Below are positions 15,874 to 30,376 of a stretch of DNA of 37,931 nucleotides, piece by piece. Every line of letters starts with the position of its first letter. Position 1 is the first letter of the stretch. The stretch lies in the IMG/VR virus record IMGVR_UViG_3300035034_002718, positions 1 through 37,931 of that record. One strand, written 5' to 3'. Position numbers and translations under genes: made by a program. Below the pieces are notes generated by a model that worked only from the letters and a program-made list of their open reading frames with translations, was not told the DNA's origin and did no database searches. The DNA comes from a virus.

Positions 15874-17103
15874 TTGGTAATTGCTAGAGGTACATTAATA
15901 TCCGCTGAGAATTTTAATAATCTGGCGGAACTGACAAATCTGGTGTTTGCTGACGCTACACCAGATGCAGCCTATGTGCCCATCATAGCATCAAATTTGC
16001 CATCCAATTTTGCAGCATCCAACATGATATTCTGGATAAGCGAAAATGATCCAGCATTTCAGACAGTATCTCCAGGACTTGGGCCATTTCAGTTGTCTGT
16101 TATCCCAATAGCAGGCGACTTTGTAATTGTGCAAATTGGAGATGAAGTTAAAAAACAAGGCTATTCAATTAATTTGATAACCGGAATGATTACGTTTACC
16201 GCACCATTGCCAGTCGCCACTAGAGTAATGGTGTTTAATAGAACTAGCCATATATTTGGCTGGGGCCAAACTGCCGTCGACGAGGTGGCTATTGCCAGCA
16301 CTGTCAACGTTGCGGATTTAAACAAAATCATTGATAGAAGTAATATCATGCTGGCTAGAATTGGTGATGATAGTGAAGTAGATCGGTTATTACCGCAGAC
16401 CAATGTTTTAGCCATTCATAAAAATCAATTAAACACAATAATTCAATCTGAGGTTATTGATACCAGCTTGCATATCACTACAACCTTAGCTGATCTCATT
16501 GAGCACACTTCCATATCCAGGACTACCGCATGGAATGATAAATTACAAGGTTCTTTTTCGTTTGTATTTCAGAATTATCAACAAGCAAGATATTTTTTTA
16601 ACTCAGGCGGACAATTGCGCACCCGGCTTGCAGTCACTGGTGATGTAGCCAATCCAGGAACCTTAACCTGGAAAGGCATAGCGGATGCCATGGGGTCATT
16701 AATTCTTTCCTGGGACCGGGCCACACAGAGTGGATTTGGCGGAGTATCAAACTTGAAAGGTTTCTATCATTTAACTGATGAATGGCAAACTATATTTTCC
16801 AGTGGTGGCCCAGGTGGTGGCCCGGGCTACAATTATAGTTACAGTTACAGTTATAGTGGATATTCAAATTTGCGCGCCATTTTTGATGCCAAATATTCAA
16901 TTGTCAATACTTCAGAATTCTCTATTGATATCCGAGTTGTAATGGAAGATTTAGATTACAATTTTGAACCTACCACCGGAACGGTAAGCTTGACTGCACT
17001 ATCAAGAAACCCAGCAGACATTTCAGTTGAAGAAGTAGACTATAGTATTAGCCCACCAACAGTTGCAATATTAGAAAATTTTGATTCAATAAATAATTCT
17101 TAA
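15874..17103 (+). CDS. Phage tail structural protein with Gly/Pro and Tyr-Ser low-complexity segment
   Basis: The frame opens with TTG immediately after the TAA of the previous gene, and no ATG occurs before about residue 50, so TTG is the probable start of a 409-residue protein. It has an N-terminal beta domain (to about 125), then SHIFGWGQTAVDEVAI and a helical region, then RYFFNSGGQLRTRLAVTGD at about 238-256, a motif I know from virion proteins of marine myoviruses. At about 309-329 lies a low-complexity stretch: Gly/Pro-rich, then four Tyr-Ser units. A C-terminal beta domain follows. The Tyr-Ser segment is a possible flexible linker or a site for modification. Structural role is likely; exact location in the virion is unknown. 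Confidence 0.78.
   Translation: MVIARGTLISAENFNNLAELTNLVFADATPDAAYVPIIASNLPSNFAASNMIFWISENDPAFQTVSPGLGPFQLSVIPIAGDFVIVQIGDEVKKQGYSINLITGMITFTAPLPVATRVMVFNRTSHIFGWGQTAVDEVAIASTVNVADLNKIIDRSNIMLARIGDDSEVDRLLPQTNVLAIHKNQLNTIIQSEVIDTSLHITTTLADLIEHTSISRTTAWNDKLQGSFSFVFQNYQQARYFFNSGGQLRTRLAVTGDVANPGTLTWKGIADAMGSLILSWDRATQSGFGGVSNLKGFYHLTDEWQTIFSSGGPGGGPGYNYSYSYSYSGYSNLRAIFDAKYSIVNTSEFSIDIRVVMEDLDYNFEPTTGTVSLTALSRNPADISVEEVDYSISPPTVAILENFDSINNS
16834..16857 (+). repeat. Tandem TAYAGT hexanucleotide repeat (four copies)
   Basis: Four in-frame copies of TATAGT or TACAGT encode four consecutive Tyr-Ser pairs in the 409-residue tail protein, directly after a Gly/Pro-rich run (from about 16799). The wobble base of the Tyr codon varies (T, C, C, T), so the repeat is not a fresh exact duplication. 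Such a tract can vary in length by slippage, but a single sequence cannot show this. Confidence 0.85.
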
Positions 17104-17105
17104 TA

Positions 17106-17134
17106 TTGACATACTGCCAATTTTAATATATAAT
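17106..17134 (+). promoter_or_regulatory. Perfect consensus sigma70 promoter upstream of the sugar-modification cassette
   Basis: TTGACA at 17106-17111 and TATAAT at 17129-17134 are separated by exactly 17 nt, the ideal bacterial housekeeping promoter. It lies in the 50-nt gap between the tail genes and the long operon to the right, and an AGGAG ribosome site (17143-17147) follows six bases before the ATG at 17154. Transcription would start near 17141, giving a very short leader. Both hexamers being perfect with 17-nt spacing by chance in 38 kb is very unlikely (about 0.002 expected with even base use, somewhat more in AT-rich DNA). It suggests the cassette can be read by unmodified host RNA polymerase, early and independently of the late tail genes. 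Confidence 0.85.
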
Positions 17135-17153
17135 CCAACAATAGGAGACATTA

Positions 17154-17504
17154 ATGGACGAACGATTAGCCAGAGCTCTGGACTTTTCAAATTATCAGAT
17201 TACTATTGAAACTCATAGAAAAAATTTGGAATCCAGAATTAAAAAAATTAGAACTGTATATTATGGTAATGGGGTATTCACTGCTGATTTAACCCATATC
17301 AGCAATCTCAATACCCTTGTGAGTTTAGGCAAAGAATCAGATGTCATTATTGAAGATACAAACAACAATCCCATAATGGTTGACTCCGTGAGCGCACTCA
17401 GCCTAAAGTTAATCGAAGCATACAATCAATCACTAAACGAATTAATCGTGGGATCAACCAAAATAAACAAAATGAGATCAGTCAAAAGTCTAATGGGTGA
17501 TTGA
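17154..17504 (+). CDS. Small phage protein of unknown function
   Basis: A 116-residue protein starting at ATG 17154 with a strong AGGAG site, directly downstream of the consensus promoter. The first half is helical and charged (LARALDFSNYQITIETHRKN, then ESRIKKIRT), followed by YYGNGVFTADLTHISNL and a short beta region, and a C-terminal helix. The shape, a helix then a GNG-F-x-A-x-x-x-L strand, reminds me of a small protein found near structural genes of T4-like marine phages, whose function is not known to me. It has no membrane segment and no enzymatic motif. Its stop overlaps the start of the glycosyltransferase-like gene by one base, so the two are probably co-translated. Confidence 0.8.
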   Translation: MDERLARALDFSNYQITIETHRKNLESRIKKIRTVYYGNGVFTADLTHISNLNTLVSLGKESDVIIEDTNNNPIMVDSVSALSLKLIEAYNQSLNELIVGSTKINKMRSVKSLMGD

Positions 17505-18397
17505 TGCAAGATAACCTTCAAGGTATATGCATGTTTGCATATAATACTGATCAAATTGACTATTTAAAATTATCAATTGTTGCTGCATTATATGCTAAAA
17601 AATATCTTCCCACCAAGAATACATGCTTAATCACCACCGCCAGTGATGTTACATGGCTAGAAAAAAATATCGAGCACCATATTATTAATGCAGCATTTGA
17701 TGAAATTGTCACATCATCAGTCACCCATAAACCCAACAAGCGACATCATTCTGACACGCCATGGGGCAATTTTGTATCTGAATTTAAAAATAGCAACAAG
17801 CACGATATATTTGAATTGAGTCCATATGATCAAACTTTGTTAATTGACATTGATTTCTTCATACAAAATAGCCAATTCAACGACTTATTTGATAGCAAAA
17901 TTCCACTGGCTCTATATAAGACGGCAAGAGATTTGCGCGGTAGAATGCCGCAACTTTCAGAACAACGATTAGATCCTGCCGGAATTCCCATGTATTGGAG
18001 CACCGCAATATACTTTGATAAATCAGATCATTCAAAAATGTTTTTTGAATTATGGGCGCATATTGCAGACAATTATGATTTCTATCGACACAGATATAAA
18101 TTACCCAATCCTCTATTCAGAACAGACTTCTGTGTTAGTATAGCTGCCCATATTCTTGGAGGCTTTGGATTAACTGATGATTATATATGTGAGTTGCCGG
18201 ACTCGCCCATGATGTACTCTGACCAAGTTGATGACATCATTGAAGTCAAGTCATCCAACGATACTATCTTTTTGTCAAATGATCTCAAAGAAAATTGGAA
18301 AGATATAATAGTAAGGCCAGGGCCAGAAAATATTCATGTCATGAATAAGCGAGCCATCGAACGGCACTATGATAGATATCTGGAAGTGTTGCTATGA
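17504..18397 (+). CDS. GT-A-type glycosyltransferase-like protein
   Basis: A 297-residue soluble protein. The first part reads as a Rossmann-like half (GICMFAYNTDQIDYLKLSIVAA, then TCLITTASD) and is followed by LLIDIDFFI, in which D115-I-D117 fits the metal-binding DxD of GT-A glycosyltransferases. The end contains IHVMNKRAIERHYD, comparable in position to the C-terminal His motif of GT8-like enzymes. The donor and acceptor cannot be deduced. I use the ATG at 17504, which overlaps the previous stop (TGATG); a TTG one codon earlier at 17501 is possible. It ends in an ATGA overlap with the next gene, whose product may be a diverged partner. Confidence 0.7.
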   Translation: MQDNLQGICMFAYNTDQIDYLKLSIVAALYAKKYLPTKNTCLITTASDVTWLEKNIEHHIINAAFDEIVTSSVTHKPNKRHHSDTPWGNFVSEFKNSNKHDIFELSPYDQTLLIDIDFFIQNSQFNDLFDSKIPLALYKTARDLRGRMPQLSEQRLDPAGIPMYWSTAIYFDKSDHSKMFFELWAHIADNYDFYRHRYKLPNPLFRTDFCVSIAAHILGGFGLTDDYICELPDSPMMYSDQVDDIIEVKSSNDTIFLSNDLKENWKDIIVRPGPENIHVMNKRAIERHYDRYLEVLL

Positions 18398-19092
18398 ATG
18401 GAATCATAATACCAGTATGTGTAATAACTCTTCCATATGCATTGTGTTTGCTCAGTAGTATAAAAAAATATTGCCCGGGTCTTGAAGTTGGATTTTTAGT
18501 AAAAAATGAAGGGACAATTCCTTTAAAGTATCAGCAACAATTGGATTATATAATAGAAGCACCATATGGGTATGATGAAAAACAACCAGTTGATATTATA
18601 GCGTACCAAGCATATTATACTACTCCATTCTTAAAGACGCTATTGTTGAGTCCACGATCACTAGTACTATCTGACATATCATATATTTTTGAAAATGCGG
18701 CGTCAATGACATTGTTTGTAAAACAAAGTTATCAACACTTTCTACTTGAGGGGCATGGCCCAGCCATTTTATTTGATAAAAGTCAATCAAACGCTGAGTT
18801 CTTTGAAGTACTTGGTGAATATTCAAAAAACTATATGGAAATATTGGGATATCAGAAAATAACACTAGGGGTATCACTTGGTCTGTTAATCGGAATAGTC
18901 AACCAATCATTCAATTTTAAGACTGATGATTCATTGATTATAACTGATGTAAGTTCTGTTGAGGACGAGGTTGAGTGTTTTATATACGACAATTCAAAAA
19001 TAAAAATGTTCAATTATAGATTATACGGCCTGGTAACATATAATCAGCTAATGACTAGCGATAACCTTGAGAGATTCAATGAATCTGATTAG
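18394..19092 (+). CDS. Possible diverged glycosyltransferase-like protein
   Basis: 232 residues, coupled by ATGA to the upstream GT-A-type gene. The opening IIIPVCVITLPYALCLLSSIKKYCP resembles the first strand and helix of a GT-A fold, and LLLSPRSLVLSDISYIFENA (about 84-103) occupies the place of a DxD strand but has only S-D-I-S, so metal binding may be lost or different. It is AT-rich with many Ile and Tyr, and lacks membrane helices and a signal peptide. It could be an inactive or regulatory partner of the preceding protein or a distant transferase. The assignment rests on layout and neighbours, not on a conserved motif. Confidence 0.45.
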   Translation: MNGIIIPVCVITLPYALCLLSSIKKYCPGLEVGFLVKNEGTIPLKYQQQLDYIIEAPYGYDEKQPVDIIAYQAYYTTPFLKTLLLSPRSLVLSDISYIFENAASMTLFVKQSYQHFLLEGHGPAILFDKSQSNAEFFEVLGEYSKNYMEILGYQKITLGVSLGLLIGIVNQSFNFKTDDSLIITDVSSVEDEVECFIYDNSKIKMFNYRLYGLVTYNQLMTSDNLERFNESD

Positions 19093-19960
19093 AAAAAAGA
19101 AACCATTACAGCGTAATTACTATGTCATATACGACCCGATATCGGGTGCAATTAAGACTATTACTCTGAATGCGCCAAGTTCACTTAGTGATGTGTTTGT
19201 TTCTGAATCTAAAATATTTGCAGATATCACCGCAGGAAAAATAAACGAACTTGATTATATAATTAATGGCGATGGTGATGACAGGTTTGTTTCCAAAAAA
19301 TCTGACGAATTATTAATACAAGTTAGTTCAAATAACTTAGTTCATATCACCAAGCCAAAACCCGCCGCCGAGCTTGATATAACCTATTACTCAACTGAAA
19401 AAAAGATGCAATTTAAATTTGGTAATGGTATCTTCAGGCAGTTGCAGACTTTTTCTAAAAAATACAAGATCAACGATTTATCAGACAAATATTTGATATT
19501 CAATCTGGTTGATCATAACAATCCTGATGTGATATATGATAATATTCAAGTCCCCACCCAATCACTGATTCATCATGATGGATATATACATAATATAGGT
19601 AATGTTCCAGATGATTTTGATCTCTATACAGCGCCTGCATTCACATCGTATTCATTGAATAAAACCACAAGCCAGTTGGTATGCCATGGATCCTACAAGA
19701 CTATTGAAACCATTATACCTATCGCACATCAACAGTCATGCCATTATATATATGATAGAGTAACGAATACTCTGAATAAAACACTCAGCGATCATACCAA
19801 TATAACATCGCTAAAATTCTTTATATCTGAATCAGATCCTGACAGATTTCATGAGTCATTTGTTATTGGTAATTCCAATATCATTAGTATGCCGCCATTG
19901 TTGCACTCACAAGAATTATACCACATACACCAGGATCTTGTCATAGGAGAGAAGAGTTGA
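19079..19960 (+). CDS. Unknown protein with repeated Tyr-rich beta-hairpin motifs
   Basis: I choose ATG 19079, which has GAGAG five bases upstream and overlaps the previous gene by 14 nt, over an upstream TTG at 19067. The 293 residues show a recurring hairpin-like pattern: YYVIYDPISGAIKTI near the start, ITYYSTEKKMQFKFG around 105, FTSYSLNKTTSQLVCHG around 190, and CHYIYDRVTNTLNKTL around 225. Each has strand, turn with Asp, Lys or Thr, and strand, with Tyr before the turn. This suggests a repetitive beta protein, possibly virion-associated or sugar-binding, rather than an enzyme. No catalytic motif, membrane segment or signal peptide is visible. It sits between glycosyltransferase-like genes. 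I do not recognise the family. Confidence 0.7.
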   Translation: MNLIRKKKPLQRNYYVIYDPISGAIKTITLNAPSSLSDVFVSESKIFADITAGKINELDYIINGDGDDRFVSKKSDELLIQVSSNNLVHITKPKPAAELDITYYSTEKKMQFKFGNGIFRQLQTFSKKYKINDLSDKYLIFNLVDHNNPDVIYDNIQVPTQSLIHHDGYIHNIGNVPDDFDLYTAPAFTSYSLNKTTSQLVCHGSYKTIETIIPIAHQQSCHYIYDRVTNTLNKTLSDHTNITSLKFFISESDPDRFHESFVIGNSNIISMPPLLHSQELYHIHQDLVIGEKS

Positions 19961-20931
19961 AGACACCGATAACAGAATTTGATATCGTTTTTATAAGTTA
20001 TGATGAACCAAATGCAGACGCCAATTGGCAAGATTTAATAAAAAAATGCCCATGGGCTAAACGAAGCCACGGAGTCTATGGGTCAGACGCCGCTCACAAA
20101 GCGGCTGCAAAGTTATCAACTACAGATAGGTTCATAACTGTTGATGCTGACAATATTGTGTTGCCGGAATTTTTTAACGTTGAATTGGATATGTCACAAG
20201 TTGGTGATCTTGACGTCATCAGCTGGGCTGGGAAAAATATCATCAATGGCCTGGCTTATGGTAATGGCGGAATCAAAATGTGGCCAGTCAATGTAGTCAC
20301 ATCAATGCGATCACATGAAAACTCAGACGCCAGAGACAAGCGGGCACAAGTTGATTTCTGTTGGAATGTCAATTATGTTAAGATGAATAATGTGTATTCG
20401 CACGTCTATAATAATGCAAGTCCTTACCAATCCTATAGAGCAGGATTCAGGGAAGGATGTAAAATGTCGTTGATGCATGGCGACGTCGTCAGTATTGACA
20501 GGCTTCAAGACGTGCCTGTAAACTATCGTAGGCTGTTGATGTGGATGAACATTGGTGCTGACACTGTGAATGGGCTTTGGGCCATCTATGGCGCTCGTTT
20601 GGGATTCTATATGACTAACTTTGATAGAGACTTGTGGAACTGGCGCGATGTCAGAGACTTCAAGTGGCATGATGAGTTCTGGGCTAAAACAATATCTACA
20701 AAATTTGCAGATGATTTTGGGACAATGTGTGACAATACTGGATACTCATATGATCAGGCCCGGCTTGTCGCGGAGATCAAGGCGCTTGGCAATAGGATCA
20801 AACAACGAATCAACTTGCCATTGGTTGAACTTGACAGTGATCAGAGCCAATTTTTTAAGGAAGTCTGGACTCCTCCCAGTAGGGTTGGAGTATTAGTTAA
20901 GGAAACAGATATTATGGTGGGTATAGAATGA
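19957..20931 (+). CDS. DAD-motif GT-A-like phage protein (copy 1)
   Basis: The frame begins at TTG 19957 in a TTGA overlap with the previous stop, with a strong AGGAG site (19944-19948) eight bases upstream. No ATG follows for about 75 codons, so TTG is well supported. The 324 residues begin FDIVFISYDEPNADANW, then KRSHGVYGSDAAHKAAA, then FITVDADNIV with D63-A-D65, which fits the nucleotide-sugar-metal site of a GT-A fold. NGLAYGNGGIKMWP (about 97-110) and SPYQSYRAGFREGCKMSL (about 154-171) are shared in pattern with the 246-residue protein at 37104. The pair thus bracket the cassette. Glycosyltransferase activity is plausible but undemonstrated; many phages carry such proteins only as conserved hypotheticals. 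Confidence 0.75.
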   Translation: MKTPITEFDIVFISYDEPNADANWQDLIKKCPWAKRSHGVYGSDAAHKAAAKLSTTDRFITVDADNIVLPEFFNVELDMSQVGDLDVISWAGKNIINGLAYGNGGIKMWPVNVVTSMRSHENSDARDKRAQVDFCWNVNYVKMNNVYSHVYNNASPYQSYRAGFREGCKMSLMHGDVVSIDRLQDVPVNYRRLLMWMNIGADTVNGLWAIYGARLGFYMTNFDRDLWNWRDVRDFKWHDEFWAKTISTKFADDFGTMCDNTGYSYDQARLVAEIKALGNRIKQRINLPLVELDSDQSQFFKEVWTPPSRVGVLVKETDIMVGIE

Positions 20932-22502
20932 GTATAGACCAAGTTAATTGGAAGCTTGACGGCAATAATTTGATAGTTAATGAGTCAACAAATCTTGCCA
21001 AGATGCGCGATCTTTTGGATTCAACAACACCTGGGTTATGCTTGGCTAAATTTACCCAGGTAACTGTACACTTGGGGACTGGTATGATGCATAGCTGTCA
21101 CCATCCATCTCCACACAAGATACCTGTTGATGAAGTGAAGTCTGATCCATATGCCCTGTATAACAGTTCAATCTTAAAAGAAGCCAGATCAACTATGCTA
21201 GCAGGAGGCAAACCATCCGAATGTGATTATTGCTGGCGGATAGAAAATGACGGTGGATTATCTGATAGGCTCTTTAAGAGTATTGAACCATGGGCTATTG
21301 ATAAGTTTGACACCGTCAAGGCTTCATCTGGTGCTGAGGATTTTCTTCCAACATATCTAGAAGTCAGTTTCAGTAATGTATGCAATCTGAAATGTGTATA
21401 CTGTGGTCCTGAATTCAGTTCAAAATGGGTTGATGAACTCAAGCAACACGGGCCCATTAAACTACTTGGTGATACCGCACATAAAAGATGGGCCCAGGGA
21501 TATCAAGACTTGGATTCATTGAATTTTAAAAATCGGGAACATAATCCATACTTGGAAGCATTCTGGCAAACTTTCCCAGTAGTTTATAAAAACTTAAAAC
21601 AATATAGAATCACCGGCGGTGAACCGCTAATGAGTAAAGAAACTTATAAGTGCCTTGATTATTTTATTGAGAATCCAAATACTGAATTGGAATTTTCAGT
21701 GAATTCAAACTTGAGTGTTCCAGATAAACTATGGGATAAATTTGTTGAGCGGTTACTCATATTAAAATCTCCAGAATATCTCAAAAAAATTACAATATTT
21801 ACGAGTGTTGAAGGATGGAATGAACAGGCAGAATATGCCAGATCTGGCCTTGACTTTAAATTATTGCAACGTCGAGTCAACCAATTGCTTGAAATTGGTA
21901 ATATTCGTGTAGCGTTCATGGCAACCTATAATATGCTCAGTATTACTAGTTTTCAAAAATTATTGGAATGGGTATATGAGTTAAAATGCAAATATAACAC
22001 CAACTTTCCAATGCATATTAATGAAACTAATTCTGGGTTTAAGATCAGCCCCAGTGAGCAATCATATATTTCTACCCAAGAAAAAAATCCATCTCAGCGA
22101 GTATTAGTTGGAATTGATATTCCATATCTACGCCATCCTGATTTTTTGGATGTGCAGAATAGTACCGACGATTTAGTAGAAGAATATATGATACCATCAA
22201 TGAATTATATGAGTTTAAAATCCGCAGATCCAATTTGGGGGCTACATAATGGGTTTGAGCACTATGAAATAGAAAAATTTAAAAGAATTGTGTTGCACCG
22301 CATATATTACAACAAAAAACTCAATAGTGACCATATGGATATAAATCTTAAAAGAGCAGAATTTCATGATTATGTTGCCAGTATAGATAAAAGACGGGGC
22401 CAAGACTTCATTAACACATTCCCTGAAATGCAAAAATTCTACGATAGTTGCAAAGAAAACCATAAAAACATATATACTAGTGATAGAATCGCCATACTTT
22501 AA
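20928..22502 (+). CDS. Radical SAM enzyme with twitch-type extra iron-sulfur cysteines
   Basis: C152-x3-C156-x2-C159 (CNLKCVYC) is the radical SAM motif that binds the 4Fe-4S cluster and S-adenosylmethionine. RITGGEPLM at about 226-234 is the following GGE element. Before the core, C57 and C99-x2-C102 followed by W suggest an auxiliary cluster of the twitch type, here N-terminal. The 524 residues have no membrane segment. Family members act on peptides, sugars or lipids; the substrate is not evident. It starts at ATG 20928, overlapping the previous gene by ATGA, with GGTGGG seven bases upstream. Its neighbours point to modification of a glycan or surface molecule, though a peptide or protein target is equally possible. 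Confidence 0.88.
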   Translation: MSIDQVNWKLDGNNLIVNESTNLAKMRDLLDSTTPGLCLAKFTQVTVHLGTGMMHSCHHPSPHKIPVDEVKSDPYALYNSSILKEARSTMLAGGKPSECDYCWRIENDGGLSDRLFKSIEPWAIDKFDTVKASSGAEDFLPTYLEVSFSNVCNLKCVYCGPEFSSKWVDELKQHGPIKLLGDTAHKRWAQGYQDLDSLNFKNREHNPYLEAFWQTFPVVYKNLKQYRITGGEPLMSKETYKCLDYFIENPNTELEFSVNSNLSVPDKLWDKFVERLLILKSPEYLKKITIFTSVEGWNEQAEYARSGLDFKLLQRRVNQLLEIGNIRVAFMATYNMLSITSFQKLLEWVYELKCKYNTNFPMHINETNSGFKISPSEQSYISTQEKNPSQRVLVGIDIPYLRHPDFLDVQNSTDDLVEEYMIPSMNYMSLKSADPIWGLHNGFEHYEIEKFKRIVLHRIYYNKKLNSDHMDINLKRAEFHDYVASIDKRRGQDFINTFPEMQKFYDSCKENHKNIYTSDRIAIL

Positions 22503-27891: not shown

Positions 27892-29114
27892 ACCTATTAC
27901 CCTTATCATTTGATACCCCTCACGTCCACTGCAACGGACTATCACCACAGGTGCTGGCTGATATATCAAATGAAATCGGCGTTGACCCGAATGTCATAAT
28001 ATATGGAACAAGTTTTTATTCAGATAATTTTTTCAAAACAAAAAACATATTGTGGAAAGAAGTTTCTTCAGAAGAGCAATACTTTTATCCCATAGTGTTC
28101 AGATGGCCAATGAAGCGGTATGCAGAAAATGGGCACGGATATACCTTTATGGAAATTCCTGAAAAAATAATCTCAGATTGTATTGCCAACAAAGCGGCCA
28201 TAATACTGTATGATGTATGGGAAGGAAATTCATGGTGGCGGTATATGCATATGGTCACTGACATCTGCCAGAGTAATGAAGGATTGCGGCCGCATCACTT
28301 TATTGTATTGACTGGCAACATGCATATGCCCACCGATCTACCATTTAAACATGTAGCAATTGCATGGTTTCAAACTATGCAACAGCATAATGTAGACTTC
28401 GCTGGAATGCAGCACCGTATCGTCAATCAAACTCGTCGTGATCACAAATTTTTATGTATGAGTCGCAGGGCGGCCCCGCATAGATTGGCATTGGTGTATC
28501 ATCTCTGGGAATATAAAAACCAGGGCGCCATGAGTTTTGATATATCAAACTACCAGTTACTGGATATCGCATATTGGCATGCCAACATACTATACGAATT
28601 TCCTGATAAAGAAAAGATGGATTTAATAAAGCGGTCTCTGCCTTTAATATTGGAGGATGGTATTGACCCCAGCACCAATCCAATAGTAGACTTCAGCCCT
28701 CAAAAGTTTCATGACTCGCACTTACACGTGGTAGCAGAAACATATTATGACTGTAAAGATACCGAACGTACCATGTTCTTCTCAGAAAAGATATACAAAC
28801 CTATGCAATATTTGCAACCATTTGTTATTCTCAATTATCCGCATAGTTTAGTTGAGCTGCGGCGTCAAGGTTATCAAACGTTTGATAAGTGGCTTGACGA
28901 GGGATATGATGGTATGTTGAATATAAACGATAGAACCATTGCTGTAGCCCAGGTGGTAAAAGACATTTGTAAACAGTCGCCCAAGGCCAGTGCTGCAATG
29001 CATAAAGATATGCTGCCAGTATTAGAGCATAACTTCCATCAACGTATATCAAACTCCACCGCTATAGACAACGACATGTATGATCTGATACATAATGCAT
29101 TGAACAGCCTATAG
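27888..29114 (+). CDS. Possible GT10-like glycosyltransferase (phage SEK family, copy 2)
   Basis: I take ATG 27888, which gives the ATGA overlap used throughout the operon, although the frame extends upstream to 27822. The 408 residues share with the gene at 22512 the blocks KFLCMSRRAAPHRLALVYHLW (187-207), HVVAETYYD (280-288), and FFSEKIYKPMQYLQPFVI (297-314), followed by LRRQGYQTF and KWLDEGYD. This block set is common in aquatic phages and resembles the nucleotide-sugar site of GT10 enzymes. It ends convergently with the dehydrogenase gene: the palindrome CTATAG at 29109-29114 encodes Leu-stop on both strands. Glycosyltransferase function is a motif-based inference. Confidence 0.62.
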   Translation: MNLLPLSFDTPHVHCNGLSPQVLADISNEIGVDPNVIIYGTSFYSDNFFKTKNILWKEVSSEEQYFYPIVFRWPMKRYAENGHGYTFMEIPEKIISDCIANKAAIILYDVWEGNSWWRYMHMVTDICQSNEGLRPHHFIVLTGNMHMPTDLPFKHVAIAWFQTMQQHNVDFAGMQHRIVNQTRRDHKFLCMSRRAAPHRLALVYHLWEYKNQGAMSFDISNYQLLDIAYWHANILYEFPDKEKMDLIKRSLPLILEDGIDPSTNPIVDFSPQKFHDSHLHVVAETYYDCKDTERTMFFSEKIYKPMQYLQPFVILNYPHSLVELRRQGYQTFDKWLDEGYDGMLNINDRTIAVAQVVKDICKQSPKASAAMHKDMLPVLEHNFHQRISNSTAIDNDMYDLIHNALNSL

Positions 29115-30332
29115 ACGAGTGTTGCCATAATGGATCACAGTGACTGCATCATTCACATATGTACGCCATGGATCAACCACAATGCTGCCGGGCGGAATGC
29201 TGCAATACATTCGTTCAATTTGTTCTTTATCCAGATACTTGTATGTAGTCGCAGCATTGTGCGCCATTAAAAATACACTGGGTATAATTGGGGTATAATT
29301 GTCACCCGTCAATGAGTCAACATACATGGGAGTAATACCCAGTGATTGGCAAAAGTGTCCAATCAATAAACTATAACTTCCGTCCAGATATGCGACACCA
29401 GGCTTATATGCCTTACCATGGATCACAATTGGCATGTCATTAAGCTGCGCCTCCATAACCAATCTCTTGGCAATATTTTTAGCTTGCACATCGCGAGCAT
29501 TCATTATAGCATCGAAGATGTCATAACCCAGGTCAAGCTTTTGTGCCATATGTCGCAATGCAATATTATCACGTGGGTGACATGCCCCGCCATCTCCGAG
29601 TCCCGCCTTCATATATTGCGGCCCTGTGATACGCATAGTTGACTTTGCCAAGGCTTCAGTAACAATATCCACATTGATATTACCTTGCTTTTCTGCAACA
29701 TCCTGGATCATATTGGCGATGCCAATCTTGGCGCTGATCATCGTGTTATAGAAAACTTTGATGCACTCGCATTCATCCCAGGTACCAATTTCATACCTTG
29801 GACTATTCTGCATAATAGTCTGATAGAAGTCAACCAACAGTTGTGCATCACCAGTTTGTGATCCATCATCTGTACCAATTATAACCATTTCTGGGTTAAC
29901 CATATCCCAGGCTACGCTGCCCATTGCAATCAAATATGGATTGTAGACGAAACGAGTATTGGTGATGAGCGGGATGAATTCTCTACGAGTTGTTCCTGGC
30001 AGCACTGTACTAATCAATACTAGTAACTGGTCTTTAGTCATGTGCTTATTGGCTTCCACCATGACATCCTTGACAATACTATAATTAAAGTCTTTGGGTG
30101 TGAGATGCGAAGTTGGCGCCCTACCGTCGTATTCGGGATCATGTGGTGTTGGTACTGCAATAAACACGATATCTTTATTTTTAACACAGTGTTCTATAGA
30201 GTTTGATATAGTAATGAAAGATGATTCACGATGAACGGCATCATAGCCCGCCACCTGGTGGCCACCCTGCGCCATGGCTTCTGCGCAAGGCATTCCAAGT
30301 TTGCCAATTCCAATAAATCCAATTTGGGTCAT
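29109..30332 (-). CDS. UDP-glucose/GDP-mannose dehydrogenase family protein
   Basis: The 407 residues open with IGFIGIGKLGMP (G8-x-G10-x2-G13, NAD-binding), followed by VFIAVPTPHDP and STVLPGTT. The middle domain has K192 and N196 (IKVFYNTMISAKI) and the catalytic C251 in GLGDGGACHPRDN. The C-terminal domain includes HGKAYKPGV and ends at the hydrophobic nucleotide-binding part. This is the two-step oxidation of UDP-glucose-type sugars to uronic acids. Oddly, the usual NPEFL segment, with its conserved Glu, reads NPYLIAMGS, so substrate or rate may differ. It is the only minus-strand gene, with an AGGAA ribosome site (complement of 30338-30342) and a 44-nt divergent gap from the carbamoyltransferase gene. 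Confidence 0.92.
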   Translation of the reverse strand: MTQIGFIGIGKLGMPCAEAMAQGGHQVAGYDAVHRESSFITISNSIEHCVKNKDIVFIAVPTPHDPEYDGRAPTSHLTPKDFNYSIVKDVMVEANKHMTKDQLLVLISTVLPGTTRREFIPLITNTRFVYNPYLIAMGSVAWDMVNPEMVIIGTDDGSQTGDAQLLVDFYQTIMQNSPRYEIGTWDECECIKVFYNTMISAKIGIANMIQDVAEKQGNINVDIVTEALAKSTMRITGPQYMKAGLGDGGACHPRDNIALRHMAQKLDLGYDIFDAIMNARDVQAKNIAKRLVMEAQLNDMPIVIHGKAYKPGVAYLDGSYSLLIGHFCQSLGITPMYVDSLTGDNYTPIIPSVFLMAHNAATTYKYLDKEQIERMYCSIPPGSIVVDPWRTYVNDAVTVIHYGNTRL

Positions 30333-30341
30333 ATGTTTTCC

Positions 30342-30349
30342 TATAAATA
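30342..30349 (+). promoter_or_regulatory. T4-late-type promoter box TATAAATA
   Basis: An exact TATAAATA occurs in the 44-nt gap between the divergent dehydrogenase and carbamoyltransferase genes. In T4 this octamer is read by the phage late sigma factor gp55. Initiation about 6-8 nt downstream would give a leader of about 20 nt, containing AAGGA (30365-30369) seven bases before the ATG at 30377. The gap has no sigma70 -35 hexamer upstream of it. An 8-bp motif in AT-rich DNA can occur by chance, but its position in the only divergent gap supports a late promoter for the right half of the cassette. Confidence 0.55.
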
Positions 30350-30376
30350 TAGCATATATTTAGCAAGGACAACAGC

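Follow-up and report, generated by a model that had tools for sequence, protein, structure and literature searches.

The window, i.e. the whole stretch of DNA that was analyzed, is a 37,931-nt fragment of a jumbo myovirus genome in which tail genes are followed, after a short gap, by a surface-sugar cassette (Table 1; gene numbers are window coordinates). Its baseplate genes place the phage with the jumbo myoviruses CBB, GAP32, 121Q, PA5oct, Atu_ph07, Phosso and SCTP-2, with which its gp6 shares 33-36% identity. Single-protein searches with the products of 15874, 14818 and 17154 retrieved no relatives; these were recovered instead with profiles built on gp6 and on the giant tail protein, and the profile searches reveal hundreds of uncultured ones. 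Common to the relatives is the gene order giant tail protein, 14267, 14818, 15874, 17154, 17501, 18394, 19067/19957 and 20928.

The cassette opens with a gene for a 116-aa protein whose homologs share a conserved MDERL start. Its structure is predicted with confidence as an alpha/beta fold (pLDDT 91), and a comparison of this model with the PDB gave no significant match. The protein family occurs in more than 500 related viral stretches and is encoded by the first cassette gene throughout the loci examined. The product of 17501 has a GT8/glycogenin fold, that of 19957 is glycosyltransferase-like by inspection, and that of 20928 is a radical SAM enzyme. In addition to the 17501 glycosyltransferase, the cassette encodes radical SAM enzymes, GDSL/DUF6071 proteins, an epimerase, a UDP-glucose dehydrogenase, a carbamoyltransferase, a fatty acid desaturase and an Asp/Asn-hydroxylase-like protein. 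From the promoter through its first five or six genes, the cassette is syntenic in dozens of relatives; the genes past the conserved core are variable. The G+C content of the cassette equals that of the structural genes.

The gap between the ORFs 15874-17103 and 17154-17504 measures 50 nt (17104-17153). As described in the first-pass annotation, it contains a perfect TTGACA-17-TATAAT with an AGGAG behind it, in agreement with the sigma70 definition of these two hexamers 16-18 nt apart; no second perfect match exists on either strand of the window. The annotation's chance expectation of about 0.002, which assumed even base use, has to be raised considerably: dinucleotide-preserving shuffles yield 0.08 matches per window when the spacer is fixed at 17 nt and 0.16 when it may vary from 15 to 19 nt. 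Because of this expectation, the hexamers alone are only weakly significant, and the case for the putative promoter is carried by where it lies and by how well relatives keep it. The gap has no predicted terminator, so that transcription of the tail genes probably continues across it, and a search of the leader for a hairpin of the T4 gene e type found none that is significant (z about -1).

Table 1. Features of the window, and sigma70-type sites in front of gp55 genes of related genomes
Feature	Position	Strand	Remark
gp25-like baseplate gene	759 (window)		
gp6-like baseplate gene	1137 (window)		
Last tail-region gene before the junction	15874-17103	+	variable, without family match
ATAAATA, candidate gp55-type late element	17089-17095	+	in tandem with the sigma70 promoter; activity predicted
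Predicted late start from this ATAAATA	about 17101-17102	+	
-35 element TTGACA	17106-17111	+	
-10 element TATAAT	17129-17134	+	17-nt spacer
Predicted sigma70 transcription start (A)	17141	+	7 nt past -10, from standard sigma70 geometry
Ribosome-binding site AGGAG	17143-17147	+	6 nt before ATG
First cassette gene, 116-aa protein	17154-17504	+	in relatives, follows the tail fibre genes as the conserved first gene
Second cassette gene, GT8/glycogenin-like glycosyltransferase	17501-18397	+	invariant DxD, HxMNK motif
Conserved cassette core, overlapping genes 18394, 19067, 19957, 20928	18394-22502	+	
TATAAATA, perfect T4-type late promoter element	30342-30349	+	inside the cassette, 27 nt before carbamoyltransferase gene 30377
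Perfect sigma70 site before gp55 gene (178819)	G011 178749-178777		
Perfect sigma70 site before gp55 gene (123792)	G007 123733-123761		
Perfect sigma70 site before gp55 gene	G013 54513-54541		
Perfect sigma70 site before gp55 gene	G014 54078-54106	-	
Perfect sigma70 site before gp55 gene	G008 91611-91639	-	

Conservation of the sigma70 promoter

An alignment of the gap in related phages had been proposed as a check on the promoter. The DNA preceding the start codon of the 17154 homologs was taken from 117 loci and reduced to 40 non-redundant upstream sequences. Thirty-six of these junctions, all with the same gene order, keep the sigma70 hexamers with a best match of at least 10/12; L173 counts among the 36 with some doubt, its match overlapping a terminator-like hairpin. 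The -35 element in these 36 is TTGACA or TTGACT, the -10 element TATAAT, TATTAT, TATAGT or a near variant, and the latter usually ends 20-30 nt before the conserved ATG. Both hexamers are perfect in 11 junctions, the window included. With the cut-off raised to at least 11/12, a promoter is found upstream of 22 out of 30 homologs of 17154 with unique upstream sequences; at the same cut-off, the neighboring genes give 0/80 (759), 1/121 (4322), 2/87 (1137), 1/95 (14818), 1/63 (14267), 0/34 (15874), 0/45 (17501) and 0/36 (20928). The predicted sigma70 promoter is thus conserved and specific to the tail/cassette junction, and the proposed check comes out in favor of a real promoter. The arrangement can nevertheless be lost, since L108, the nearest relative of the window on the tree, has a 22-nt gap with neither a sigma70 promoter nor an ATAAATA.

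Sites of the same kind are abundant in many members of the family. Perfect TTGACA-16/18-TATAAT matches number 32 in 121Q, 21 in CBB and 24 in one 165-kb contig, against 0-1 for a reversed-pattern control in the same genomes; several contigs as well as Atu_ph07 and Phosso have few or none (two or none in the latter two). In five relatives, a perfect TTGACA-17-TATAAT lies just upstream of the gp55 gene (Table 1), a place at which one would expect a pre-late promoter; consensus sigma70 sites of this family also front pre-late genes, gp55 itself included. The perfect promoters of a genome lie nearly all on one strand (W01, W03, W04, W06, G007 and G011; e.g. 32:0, 21:0 and 24:0), usually the one opposite to gp6. 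According to the CBB genome paper, the presumed early region holds most of the RpoD-like promoters of that phage, and a separate ATAAATA motif is situated before structural genes (PMC5259590).

CBB, a gp55-encoding jumbo myovirus that shares its baseplate family with the window (34% identity in gp6), possesses RpoD-like early promoters of the TTGACA/TATAAT type (PMC5259590). The difference lies in their location: the majority of the CBB promoters are found in the early region, whereas the one described here separates a sugar cassette from the tail genes and is on the strand of the late genes.

The ATAAATA element and its nesting at the junction

Homologs of gp55 were detected in 26 of the 27 relatives searched, and none was seen in the window, which is a fragment. 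In the loci of the family, ATAAATA occurs at 5.36 per kb of intergenic DNA vs 0.036 per kb of coding DNA, i.e. at a ratio of 147, compared with intergenic/coding ratios of 1.2-10.8 for the 20 other arrangements of the same letters. The coding DNA of the loci L008-L187 strongly avoids the word (0.036 per kb vs about 0.5 per kb for most permuted words), and it looks as if selection acted against stray late promoters. ATAAATA precedes structural gene groups, which are mostly devoid of sigma70 sites. We take it as the late promoter element of the family. In likeness to the T4 late promoter (TATAAATA) and to the ATAAATA late motif of CBB and GAP32, it stands ahead of structural genes, and gp55 is present in the family. 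By convention, the T4 late element spans -13 to -6 (PMC1524935).

In the window, a copy of ATAAATA lies within the last codons of gene 15874, 10 nt before TTGACA and 58 nt before the ATG, in keeping with a T4-type late promoter, whose element stands on the coding strand near a gene start. Because the motif is under-represented in the window (8 copies vs 18.9 expected), chance is an unlikely source of this one, though it is a single case in coding DNA. A short divergent gap within the cassette (30333-30376) carries late-type elements on both strands: CTAAATA on the minus strand, before the UDP-glucose dehydrogenase gene 29109-30332, and TATAAATA on the plus strand, before 30377.

Many relatives combine the two signals more closely. 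Of the 36 junction promoters, 16 have ATAAATA within the sigma70 spacer, and in all 16 it starts 9-11 nt before the -10 hexamer; when TAAATA at the same phase is counted, 18 junctions are nested. The other perfect sigma70 sites of the family contain a spacer ATAAATA in 4 out of 140 cases. Fisher's test gives p about 1e-9 for this comparison, a value that ignores the relatedness of the sequences and overstates their independence, as the nested state clusters on the tree. A gene-by-gene scan of the loci found 14 nested promoters, 13 of them in front of 17154 homologs. The fourteenth, in L152, was considered as an exception to the junction rule and rejected: it belongs to the same junction and is retained ahead of an insert. 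This insert, between 15874 and 17154, is a predicted gene for an apparent membrane protein of 203 aa (L152 15012-15623). A tree of the 17154 proteins requires five changes of the nested state, only two of them forced by supported branches; according to this tree, the nested state is neither one recent copy nor a fully independent acquisition each time.

The spacer of the window contains no TAAATA, so that the nested form is a property of relatives and the window shows the tandem form. When viral contigs were scanned for the nested pattern, the matches listed were mostly other contigs, with two recognized family members that were already in the set, and the scan was not used. Each half of the arrangement, the sigma70 promoter and the late element, is already known singly; a limited search of open-access papers brought up no account of a late element placed at a fixed phase within a sigma70 spacer.

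Timing of cassette transcription

The cassette had been thought to be transcribed early by the host polymerase, apart from the late transcription of the surrounding structural genes. The promoter behind this proposal is supported as genuine by its conservation in 36 of 40 junctions. The notion of an early-only cassette set apart from late transcription is not supported: ATAAATA is often nested in the promoter of relatives and lies just upstream of it in the window, TATAAATA is present inside the cassette, and the gap has no predicted terminator. The surface-sugar cassette is, on these grounds, probably switched on both early and late.

From the sequence elements, the conservation of the junction, the fixed nested phase in relatives and the presence of gp55 in the family, we infer transcription, its timing and a hand-over between two sigma factors. 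In this model, which we regard as the best explanation and as a whole quite likely, a working sigma70-type promoter would start the cassette independently of the preceding late tail operon. Its first user would most likely be host RNA polymerase with sigma70, ahead of the onset of late transcription and starting close to 17141; later, a gp55-type sigma would take over the same junction from ATAAATA. In the window, gp55-RNA polymerase would start near 17101; in the nested relatives the start would fall inside the -10 hexamer, since the T4 late element covers -13 to -6. The cassette would thereby be expressed through both phases. More tentatively, and at somewhat less than even chances, the junction could be a composite hand-over promoter, at which the sigma70 and gp55 holoenzymes use the same DNA in turn and to the exclusion of each other, with a tandem version in the lineage of the window. 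If this is true, the composite promoter keeps one operon on through the early-to-late switch.

A partial precedent is provided by the T4 genes e and I-TevI, which are served by early read-through plus a late promoter (PMC3014915). There as well as here, one gene would be reached by early and late transcripts. In T4, however, early RNA reaches these genes from promoters further up and is kept from being translated by a hairpin (PMC3014915), whereas the junction would have a local early start, and its leader has no significant predicted hairpin. The late promoters of T4, CBB and GAP32 also differ from the junction, whose late element is nested in the sigma70 spacer in many relatives and in tandem with the promoter in the window.

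Among the alternatives, a purely early promoter in the window, read by sigma70 alone following loss of the late element in this lineage and driving a cassette that acts early on the host, appears unlikely. The perfect hexamers of the window and 10 other clusters would suit it, as would the fact that neither the window nor about 20 other clusters have a nested ATAAATA. Yet the ATAAATA at 17089-17095 is just upstream, TATAAATA precedes an internal cassette gene, and late read-through is to be expected anyway, no terminator being predicted where the late tail operon passes into the cassette. Slightly less probable still is that the -35 and -10 elements are read mainly in a middle phase by a phage-encoded sigma70-like factor instead of early by host sigma70. 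CBB indeed encodes such a factor, CBB_513, besides gp55 (PMC5259590); but the hexamers are the exact host consensus, most RpoD-like promoters of CBB cluster in its presumed early region, and the promoters of its second class differ in the -35, which reads TGAAACG (PMC5259590).

We consider it improbable that the cassette is an independent, moron-like insertion with its own host promoter. Lambdoid morons, too, are accessory genes that lie among late genes and carry a sigma70 promoter of their own (PMC1524935), and both the promoter at the edge of the late operon and the variable genes beyond the core recall them. Unlike these morons, the cassette shows no compositional break, no terminator was found at its edge, its promoter and first five or six genes are syntenic in dozens of relatives, and a late element occurs at the same promoter; the novel ORFs of T4-like phages have been described as not moron-like, too (PMC1524935). 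Measured against the definition of a moron, i.e. a promoter and a terminator flanking a compositionally distinct insert, the near edge of the cassette does not conform, and the far end lies outside the window. Finally, a chance match in an AT-rich gap, to which the 0.08-0.16 perfect matches expected per window would lend a little room, is refuted by the position-specific conservation of the junction promoter in 36 of 40 relatives and by the clean neighboring controls.

The dual-promoter model, with a sigma70 start and a later take-over by gp55, also bears on the purpose of the cassette. The early promoter had been read as fitting a cassette that modifies the host during infection. Probably under both controls and immediately next to the tail fibre genes, the operon could just as well serve to glycosylate the virion. 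The junction marks the start of a conserved glycosyltransferase/radical-SAM operon, and the timing of this operon would help to choose between an early alteration of the host surface and a late decoration of the virion. For dozens of uncultured jumbo phages, it provides a concrete case in which one short sequence seemingly serves both the host sigma factor and the late sigma factor of the phage.
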